A stretch of 36,850 nt of DNA from Thermoplasmatota archaeon (GTDB lineage: Archaea > Thermoplasmatota > Poseidoniia > Poseidoniales > Thalassarchaeaceae): positions 1 to 36,850 of the forward strand of contig JAURCP010000013.1 of NCBI GenBank assembly GCA_030828405.1. Reading direction: 5' to 3'. The notes beneath the pieces are model-generated. The model ran no database searches and was not told the DNA's origin. It saw nothing but the letters and a program-made list of their open reading frames with translations. How positions within the stretch are numbered: position 1 is the stretch's first letter; the number at the start of each line of letters is the position of its first letter. This document shows, one piece after another, positions 27,085-28,855 of the stretch. The position numbers and the translations under genes were made by a program.

Positions 27085-27288
27085 TTAGGTACTAATTTTT
27101 ACAATAGAGAGAGCGTGGACTGGACAAAATGGGATGCAATAGTTACAATGTGTACAGGATGGTTCGTCCACTACAGCTAATATATCTTCGAGAACTAAGG
27201 CGTTTACAGGGCATAGTGAAACACAAGCAGCACAGCCAAAGCAACGATCATTATCTACAACGAATGTTGAATGGGGTACTCTTGCCAT
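27085..27288 (-). CDS. 2x[4Fe-4S] ferredoxin
   Basis: 67-residue electron carrier with two complete CxxCxxCxxxCP motifs, CFGCAACVSLCP and CTHCNYCIPFCP, each to hold a [4Fe-4S] cluster. Length and spacing are those of bacterial/archaeal clostridial-type ferredoxins. Partner enzymes are not indicated: the neighbouring M20 hydrolase needs no electrons. The gene starts at 27288, at the left edge of the intergenic region that carries the candidate origin, and is divergent from the beta-CASP nuclease gene. Confidence 0.93.
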   Translation of the reverse strand: MARVPHSTFVVDNDRCFGCAACVSLCPVNALVLEDILAVVDEPSCTHCNYCIPFCPVHALSIVKIST

Positions 27289-27544
27289 GCTTACATGAAG
27301 AGGTCTTAGTTCTCAATTTATCCCCCCGACCCCTTTATTTCCACTGGAGACAAAACAAGATAGATTTCATTAAGATATATTCTATAAATCAAGTGATTTC
27401 AATATACAATCATACTATAAAATCGGTAAGACATAAACATTCTGAAGACATCTCAAACAAATTACTAACAATATGATATTTCTACTGGAAATATAGGGGA
27501 TGGAGTTCCAAAGACCTCATCATGTTAACCATTGTCGGTAATGT
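27289..27544. other. candidate replication origin (paired ORB-like elements around an AT-rich core)
   Basis: Intergenic region of 256 bp with no ORF or RNA gene. On the minus strand (complement of 27322-27348) it contains CCAGTGGAAATAAAGGGGT followed by more G; on the plus strand at about 27478-27503 it contains CTACTGGAAATATAGGGGA. Over 22 aligned positions about 17 agree, and both fit the archaeal origin recognition box, a dyad around TCCASTGGAAA followed by a GGGG string, which binds Orc1/Cdc6. The two copies are inverted, with the G-strings pointing outward. Between them, 27351-27477 is about 77% A+T, as expected for an unwinding element. A weaker half-match (TTAAACAAGGGGAT) lies at about 27042-27055. 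The region also must hold promoters for the divergent ferredoxin and nuclease genes. Confidence 0.6.
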
Positions 27545-28855
27545 ATGGTACTATACACTCCCGGCCAATCTTCAGGATATCCTAGAACTGAAGTAAAGGA
27601 AGGGATCCGGTTTCATTTTTTAGGTGGAGGAAATGAAGTTGGTAATGTTGGCTGTGTAATTGAAGACAATACAGGGACACGGGTGTTAATTGATTATGGC
27701 TTAGCTCCAACACGCCCCCCAAAATATCCAGATCAATGTCCACCCATAACGGACGCAATAATAACTCATAGCCACATTGATCATATTGGAATGGTTCCGT
27801 GGTTAACACAGTTCAACAATGTCAAATTCCACGGTACAAGCTTAACATCTGCAGTTTCAGAAATAATGTGGAGAGATACCTACAAAGTTTCCAAAATAGA
27901 GGGTTATCCACTTACATGGGATAAAAGAGATTTAGAATATGCACTTGAGTCGTGGGTTACTCATGATTATCAAGAATGGTTTATTATTGGAGAATGGAAA
28001 TGTAGACTACACAGAGCCGGCCACATGCCTGGTGCTGCAATGGTAGAAATAGAAACACCTACTCACCGTATTTTATGGTCCGGAGATCTTGATACAAGAG
28101 ATAGCCCTAATACAATCGGAGCCAAACCAATTAAATGCGACATTCTTTGTTTAGAAGCTACATATGGCGGTAAAATCCATCCAGATAGATCCGATGAAGA
28201 GGCTAGATTTGTATCCACAGTAAAGGAAATAGTGCAAAGAGGAGGAGTGGCTTTAATCCCAGCTTTCGCTTCGGGGCGTGGGCAAGACATTCTTCGTATA
28301 TTGTATAGAGAAGCCCCACATCTCAACGTTCATTACGATGGAATGGGGACAAGATTAACAAGAAAGTGGTTTGAAAATCCAGAACATATCAAAGACGTAG
28401 AGGATTTTGAAAAAGTATGGAAATGGACTAGAAAAGTCTCAAGTAAATCCGATCGTAAAAAGGCATTACAAGCAGACGTTATTGTCACAACCAGTGGGAT
28501 GTTAGATGGTGGTCCCGCGCTCTGGTATCTAAATCGTCTAAGGGCAGATATATCAAATGGAATTTTATTGACCGGCTACCAAGCCGAGAATTCGGGAGGC
28601 AGGAAATTACTTGAAGAAGGAAAAATAAGTATTTTTGGAAACCTCACCAAGATAGATTTAGATGTTTCACAATTCCAATTATCTAATCATGCCGGACATA
28701 CTGAATTATGTAACTTTGCTAAGGATTGTAGCCCAAAAAATATGATTTTATTCCATGCCCCGGAGGAAAGTAGAAGTGTTATTTTTTCCGAATTAGGGGA
28801 AAAAATAGATATTCACTTACCTGTTAATGGCACCCCAATCCACATAAATTCTTGA
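27545..28855 (+). CDS. beta-CASP metallo-beta-lactamase ribonuclease (aCPSF2-like)
   Basis: RNA-processing nuclease related to CPSF73. The metallo-beta-lactamase part has HSHIDH (75-80), the HMPGAA His and GDLDTRDSP Asp zinc ligands; the beta-CASP part has AFASGRGQD, the VVTTSGMLDGG loop, LLTGYQAENSGG and the closing His in SNHAGHTEL. At 436 aa without N-terminal KH domains it fits aCPSF2 rather than aCPSF1; aRNase J is the other candidate. Family members mature or degrade mRNA 3' or 5' ends. ATG 27545 is the natural start; one ORB-like element ends about 42 bp upstream. Confidence 0.88.
   Translation: MVLYTPGQSSGYPRTEVKEGIRFHFLGGGNEVGNVGCVIEDNTGTRVLIDYGLAPTRPPKYPDQCPPITDAIITHSHIDHIGMVPWLTQFNNVKFHGTSLTSAVSEIMWRDTYKVSKIEGYPLTWDKRDLEYALESWVTHDYQEWFIIGEWKCRLHRAGHMPGAAMVEIETPTHRILWSGDLDTRDSPNTIGAKPIKCDILCLEATYGGKIHPDRSDEEARFVSTVKEIVQRGGVALIPAFASGRGQDILRILYREAPHLNVHYDGMGTRLTRKWFENPEHIKDVEDFEKVWKWTRKVSSKSDRKKALQADVIVTTSGMLDGGPALWYLNRLRADISNGILLTGYQAENSGGRKLLEEGKISIFGNLTKIDLDVSQFQLSNHAGHTELCNFAKDCSPKNMILFHAPEESRSVIFSELGEKIDIHLPVNGTPIHINS

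Follow-up and report, generated by a model that had tools for sequence, protein, structure and literature searches.

A probable chromosomal replication origin of the Poseidoniales, unlinked from the orc1/cdc6 initiator genes

An initiator gene beside the origin is usual in archaea rather than strictly required. According to a review, all of the archaeal origins that had been characterised by then depend on an adjacent initiator gene, and a cis location of the initiator is unnecessary for plasmid replication or ARS activity (PMC4010727). According to another, one copy adjoins a predicted origin in genomes with two core copies of orc1/cdc6 (PMC5333045). At Sulfolobus oriC1, which is of the Orc1-1/ORB type (PMC12141716, PMC4010727), inverted origin recognition boxes (ORBs) surround an A+T-rich unwinding element, which contains a further motif, ucm, that is bound by the protein UBP (PMC12141716). 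The predicted origins of the Methanomassiliicoccales, a related lineage, have a nearly identical ORB consensus to the one described here, and their ORBs are mostly paired (PMC4153887).

The locus that we describe, from the order Poseidoniales, shares with Sulfolobus oriC1 both the inverted ORBs around an A+T-rich segment and an Orc1-1-type initiator. However, it has two ORBs only and no adjacent initiator, whereas oriC1 lies by cdc6-1. Similarly, the ORB pairs of the Methanomassiliicoccales flank orc1/cdc6.1, but the Poseidoniales pair lies between genes for a ferredoxin and a beta-CASP nuclease (PMC4153887). We propose that this gap is the main chromosomal, bidirectional origin (oriC) of the archaeon (probability roughly 0.9), because the pair is conserved and near-unique, because strand composition switches there, and because gene co-directionality in a closed genome peaks there. 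The origin appears to be of a known kind (Orc1/Cdc6-ORB), and what would be new is the arrangement, unlinked from the initiator genes across the order.

The ORB pair and its conservation

The window (the whole stretch of DNA that was analysed, 36,850 nucleotides) comes from a Ca. Thalassarchaeaceae archaeon (MGIIb, Poseidoniales) whose genome is 81% complete. Among named records, its beta-CASP gene has its closest orthologues in Ca. Thalassarchaeaceae, Ca. Poseidoniales, and unclassified Euryarchaeota bins. Between the ferredoxin gene (start at 27288, minus strand) and the beta-CASP gene (start at 27545, plus strand), which diverge, there is a gap with no likely gene inside it. The left ORB element (minus strand, 27351-27330) reads GTCTCCAGTGGAAATAAAGGGG, then TCGGGGGG, and the right element (plus strand, 27478-27499) reads ATTTCTACTGGAAATATAGGGG. 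They are inverted, face outward, and are identical at 17 of 22 positions. The left ORB agrees with the archaeal ORB consensus CTTCCAGTGGAAACGAAAGGGGT (PMC4153887); relative to TCCASTGGAAANNNNGGGG, a dyad plus G-string, it has no mismatches and the right ORB has one. The 126 bp between the elements is 77% A+T (versus 60% across the window), and this layout of inverted ORBs around an A+T-rich segment is kept in relatives (Table 1).

The original prediction, made from the letters of the window, had described two inverted, outward-facing 22-bp elements with about 17 matches, in a gene-free gap between divergent genes, and had recognised the layout of ORBs and an unwinding element; all of this holds at the verified coordinates. 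It gave the A+T content of the spacer correctly but its length as about 128 bp, and of the two TCCASTGGAAA-like dyads that it reported, the left one is exact and the right one departs by one base (TCTACTGGAAA). It was also right that the window contains no orc1/cdc6 gene: the genome's two copies are on other contigs (C56 and C38).

Table 1. Features of the proposed origin and of ORBs elsewhere in Poseidoniales genomes
Feature	Position	Strand	Description
Left ORB	27329..27351	minus	dyad TCCAGTGGAAA + TAAA + GGGGT; G-string towards ferredoxin
Second G tract (TCGGGGGG) beyond left ORB	27320-27328		
A+T-rich inter-ORB segment	27352..27477	none	77% A+T; presumed duplex-unwinding element
Right ORB (TCTACTGGAAATATAGGGG)	27478..27500	plus	G-string towards beta-CASP; start codon 64 bp on
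Ferredoxin (4Fe-4S) gene	27085..27288	minus	Pfam Fer4; the flank retained beside the origin where relatives are rearranged (synteny)
Beta-CASP metallo-beta-lactamase-fold nuclease gene	27545..28855	plus	Pfam Beta-Casp, Lactamase_B; orthologues in relatives; flank only
mcm-promoter ORB	G000:C5:30697-30716 (L014, L178; L161-L187)		points into mcm
Intragenic ORB in winged-helix gene	G000:C56:39740-39759 (L213; L196-L215)		near orc1/cdc6-A

When the outward pair is searched for with a strict pattern, 112 of 219 Poseidoniales genomes match, nearly all of them at a single place, while the reversed pattern, used as a control, matches none of the 219. (Among the listed cases, genomes that were counted twice mostly reflect overlapping registers of a C run, and one, G109, has one extra place.) Given these numbers, the pair is not due to chance. 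Because the pattern is strict, a genome without a match is not a genome without the pair, and indeed the pair is present in all 30 genomes that we read directly. It adjoins the beta-CASP gene at 27 of 30 beta-CASP loci. In the other three genomes (G017, G027, and G015), it lies beside the ferredoxin gene and is parted from beta-CASP: in G017 and G027, a 6.6-kb block, which corresponds to the genes at 9.1-16.7 kb of the window, inverted, separates the pair from beta-CASP, and in G015, the pair and the ferredoxin gene are on a contig without beta-CASP. As the order ferredoxin - pair - beta-CASP is found in both families, it is probably ancestral to the Poseidoniales. None of the three MGIII genomes, which represent the sister order, matches the strict pattern. 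An inverted ORB pair does occur at another locus in one MGIII genome (G303:C7:30134-30246; L224/L226), with a 73 bp gap of 77% A+T and on a different contig from that genome's single orc1/cdc6; this is a further candidate for an unlinked origin. Separately, contig DDKW01000003.1 (L195), which is filed as Dehalococcoidia bacterium UBA2588, carries an archaeal beta-CASP gene that is 96% identical, and it is probably a misbinned Poseidoniales contig.

In many relatives, the inter-ORB gap contains a pair of direct repeats, mostly 27-36 bp apart (e.g., L039, L053, L051, L059). The repeated sequence varies between lineages and agrees within a genome (TTGTAATAGATTTTrATA; AACAACAAAA; GTGAGTATG). The repeats are individually significant relative to shuffles in 11 of 27 cases, which come from related genomes and hence are non-independent; no direct repeat pair in the window's own gap was significant by this comparison. 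These lineage-specific repeats are possibly the site for a second origin-binding protein. The Sulfolobus ucm motif is a functional precedent for them rather than a homologue, and no homologue of ucm was recognised in the Poseidoniales gap. In family f2, a block that contains TCGCG is also partly conserved inside the gap.

Two orc1/cdc6 genes are present in each of the 20 Poseidoniales genomes that we searched. Orc1/Cdc6-A is closest to 2v1u and 2qby_A (Cdc6 homologue 1, E about 1e-86), so by similarity the genome encodes an Orc1-1-type initiator of the ORB-binding kind; Orc1/Cdc6-B is closest to 1fnn. Neither gene adjoins the pair in any Poseidoniales genome examined. The coordinates in the closed genome (G037) are 203.8 kb for the pair, 1829 kb for orc1/cdc6-A, and 701 kb for orc1/cdc6-B, which places the two genes about 0.44-0.50 Mb from the pair (A about 0.44 Mb round the circle). 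Conversely, no ORB with three or fewer mismatches was found within 1.5 kb of either orc1/cdc6 gene in the loci scanned.

ORBs at mcm and in a winged-helix gene

Across 13 genomes, the ORB pattern with up to two mismatches gave 62 matches, versus 10 for the reversed pattern. By our assignment, 24 of these are at the proposed oriC, 11 at mcm, 9 in a single winged-helix gene, and 18 elsewhere, so three loci account for most of the excess over the control. In genus g15, an additional ORB-like site lies 70-74 kb from the origin, at a locus that G048 and G059 share (L236, L237; G048:C18, G059:C6).

To collect mcm loci, we used membership in the MCM family alone, blind to ORBs. An ORB (three or fewer mismatches) is upstream of mcm in 26 of 28 loci and is always directed into the gene; shuffled sequence of the same length usually gives 5-7 mismatches. 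One of the two loci without it is an over-extended frame in G205. The other is in G080, which has strong MCM genes on both C10 and C16; it is the second of these, on C16 (L160), that has no ORB upstream. When the promoters are anchored on the ORB, most have a second dyad, without a G-string, about 53 bp upstream, and there is a TTATA-like box about 35 bp downstream. In other words, the ORB has a fixed place, conservation beyond chance, and constant spacing to the dyad and the TATA-like box. The A+T content is not elevated at the mcm promoter, which makes the site unlike an origin. In the five genomes that have both on one contig and that we compared, mcm is about 80-102 kb from the pair. No ORB was found at mcm in the three MGIII genomes.

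The winged-helix gene is near orc1/cdc6-A. In all 18 genomes with enough sequence, an ORB (three or fewer mismatches) lies about 4-5.5 kb on the 3' side of orc1/cdc6-A, on the opposite strand, inside a gene for a protein of 760-880 amino acids with an ArsR/MarR-like N-terminus (weak Pfam matches). This intragenic ORB is always in the same frame, within an otherwise variable stretch of the protein, and in 17 of 18 cases its serine codon is TCC. Another element, TTCTCCANTGGAAATATGTAACTAAATGTAACTA, lies about 490-530 bp upstream of this ORB and some 85-95 bp ahead of the gene's likely start codon; it consists of a dyad and then two TGTAAC repeats, which are spaced by one helical turn.

The ORB at mcm and the ORB and dyad of the winged-helix gene are candidate sites for the same initiator, with a presumed regulatory role, and one initiator protein may control both the origin and mcm. 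A broader proposal is that, in the Poseidoniales, the initiator doubles as a transcription factor. Its regulon would be minimal, at roughly four strong ORBs in each genome: the oriC pair, the ORB at the mcm promoter, and the ORB in the winged-helix gene. The level of initiator would then set helicase supply and origin firing together, which would replace the usual cis link between the origin and orc1/cdc6; we hold this tentatively, at slightly below even odds. A precedent for a transcription regulator in the Orc1 family is the DNA-damage regulator Orc1-2 of Sulfolobus, although Orc1-2 is a non-initiator paralogue (PMC9738581), whereas in the Poseidoniales the candidate sites are ORBs of the initiator type, with mcm as the presumed target. 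An alternative is that the extra ORBs titrate the initiator, as in Haloarcula hispanica, where an ORB cluster outside of the origin (oriC2D) controls initiation, probably by titration (PMC3936714). However, that cluster has 11 ORBs directly downstream of cdc6E, while the Poseidoniales have single ORBs at mcm and in the winged-helix gene. Another alternative is that the extra ORBs are a relic of an ancestral origin that was linked to orc1/cdc6.

Strand composition, gene orientation, and alternative explanations

In the closed genome, we scored 104 candidate origin positions on a sample of 40 stretches, which cover 0.8 of the 2.06 Mb and contain 580 ORFs; the terminus was assumed to be opposite. 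Gene co-directionality is maximal (0.617) at 203.8 kb, which is the ORB pair. It is also at the pair that leading and lagging genes contrast most in third-position GC; the corresponding AT3 extreme is 60 kb away. Raw GC skew in this genome was too weak to interpret; it was the third-position, strand-separated analysis that gave a signal.

For two other genomes, G048 and G022, we divided about 60 kb to either side of the pair into 10-kb bins, on one contig each, and third-position skews reverse sign at the pair in both. In G048, GC3 skew is positive in all six bins on the left (0.09 to 0.20) and negative in all six on the right (−0.04 to −0.19), and AT3 skew has the inverse pattern. G022 shows the same switch in sign for GC3 and, in 11 of 12 bins, for AT3. 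For both measures in G048, and for A-T in G022, an unconstrained search placed the change point in the pair's own gene interval; the G-C change point of G022 was 1.7 kb away (p = 0.0005, the lowest value that the permutation test allows). In the window, the interval with the gap holds the A-T change point (p = 0.0025), and the one for G-C is 6 kb away (p = 0.012). The search found nothing significant in G011 or G031. To control for coding-strand effects, genes were compared on their own strand: the third-position difference between leading and lagging genes had p = 9e-11 in G048, 7e-4 in G022, 6e-3 in G031, and 0.11 in G011. G048 shows the strand effect far more strongly than does the genus to which the window belongs. 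Also, in G037, G048, and the window, more genes point outward from the pair than point towards it.

The original prediction had called the gap an origin, possibly a secondary one, and had suggested a genome-wide search for other pairs and a comparison with relatives. Those checks came out in favour of an origin: there is essentially one such place per genome, the elements are retained even where one flanking gene has parted from them, and composition and orientation switch at the site. It is improbable that the pair is a secondary or dormant origin, with some other site (such as mcm or the ORB near orc1/cdc6-A) as the main one, because the best single position by co-directionality in the closed genome is the pair. 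Several origins are possible in archaea, and a single conserved ORB is indeed present at both mcm and the orc1/cdc6-A region, but at mcm there is one full ORB and no A+T enrichment, and the ORB near orc1/cdc6-A is intragenic.

A second possibility, which we rate slightly lower still, is that there is no origin and the palindromes are operators through which an ordinary regulator acts on ferredoxin and beta-CASP, the two divergent genes. The site does lie in a divergent intergenic gap, and in relatives the right element precedes the start of beta-CASP by 57-92 bp. However, the motif is the archaeal ORB with its G-string, and strand composition switches at the site over tens of kilobases. A regulator linked to beta-CASP in particular can be rejected because the pair persists apart from beta-CASP in three genomes (G017, G027, and G015).

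Finally, it is hardly credible that the switch marks a replication terminus: third-position G-C skew does go from positive to negative across the site, as at a terminus in bacteria, but ORBs that flank an A+T-rich segment are elements of initiation, and more genes point away from the site than towards it. If the pair is the origin, third codon positions in G048 and G022 have more C and more A on the leading strand (L246-L257). This sign is opposite to the bacterial rule and is a caveat, but given gene co-directionality and the ORBs, we still read the site as an origin.

Proposed mechanism and significance

We propose that an Orc1-1-type Orc1/Cdc6, encoded on another contig, would bind each ORB via its dyad and G-string, so that two outward-facing initiator complexes bracket the A+T-rich segment. 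That segment would melt, and MCM would be loaded there, leading to bidirectional replication. As both orc1/cdc6 genes are unlinked from the pair, the initiator would act on the origin in trans. With less confidence, we suggest that the same initiator binds the ORB at the mcm promoter and the ORB and dyad of the winged-helix gene near orc1/cdc6-A, and that the level of initiator is thereby coupled to helicase supply.

We know of no cultured representatives of the Poseidoniales. The order (MGII) comprises the most abundant planktonic archaea in ocean surface waters (PMC6461757). In the literature that we searched, we found neither a published replication origin for MGII nor an archaeal ORB at mcm. 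An order-wide origin that is unlinked from its initiator would depart from the pairing of replicator and initiator at characterised archaeal origins. The ORB at the mcm promoter provides a simple, testable hypothesis, which is that initiator and helicase are controlled in coordination. And with a known oriC, in situ growth of these archaea could be estimated from coverage ratios.
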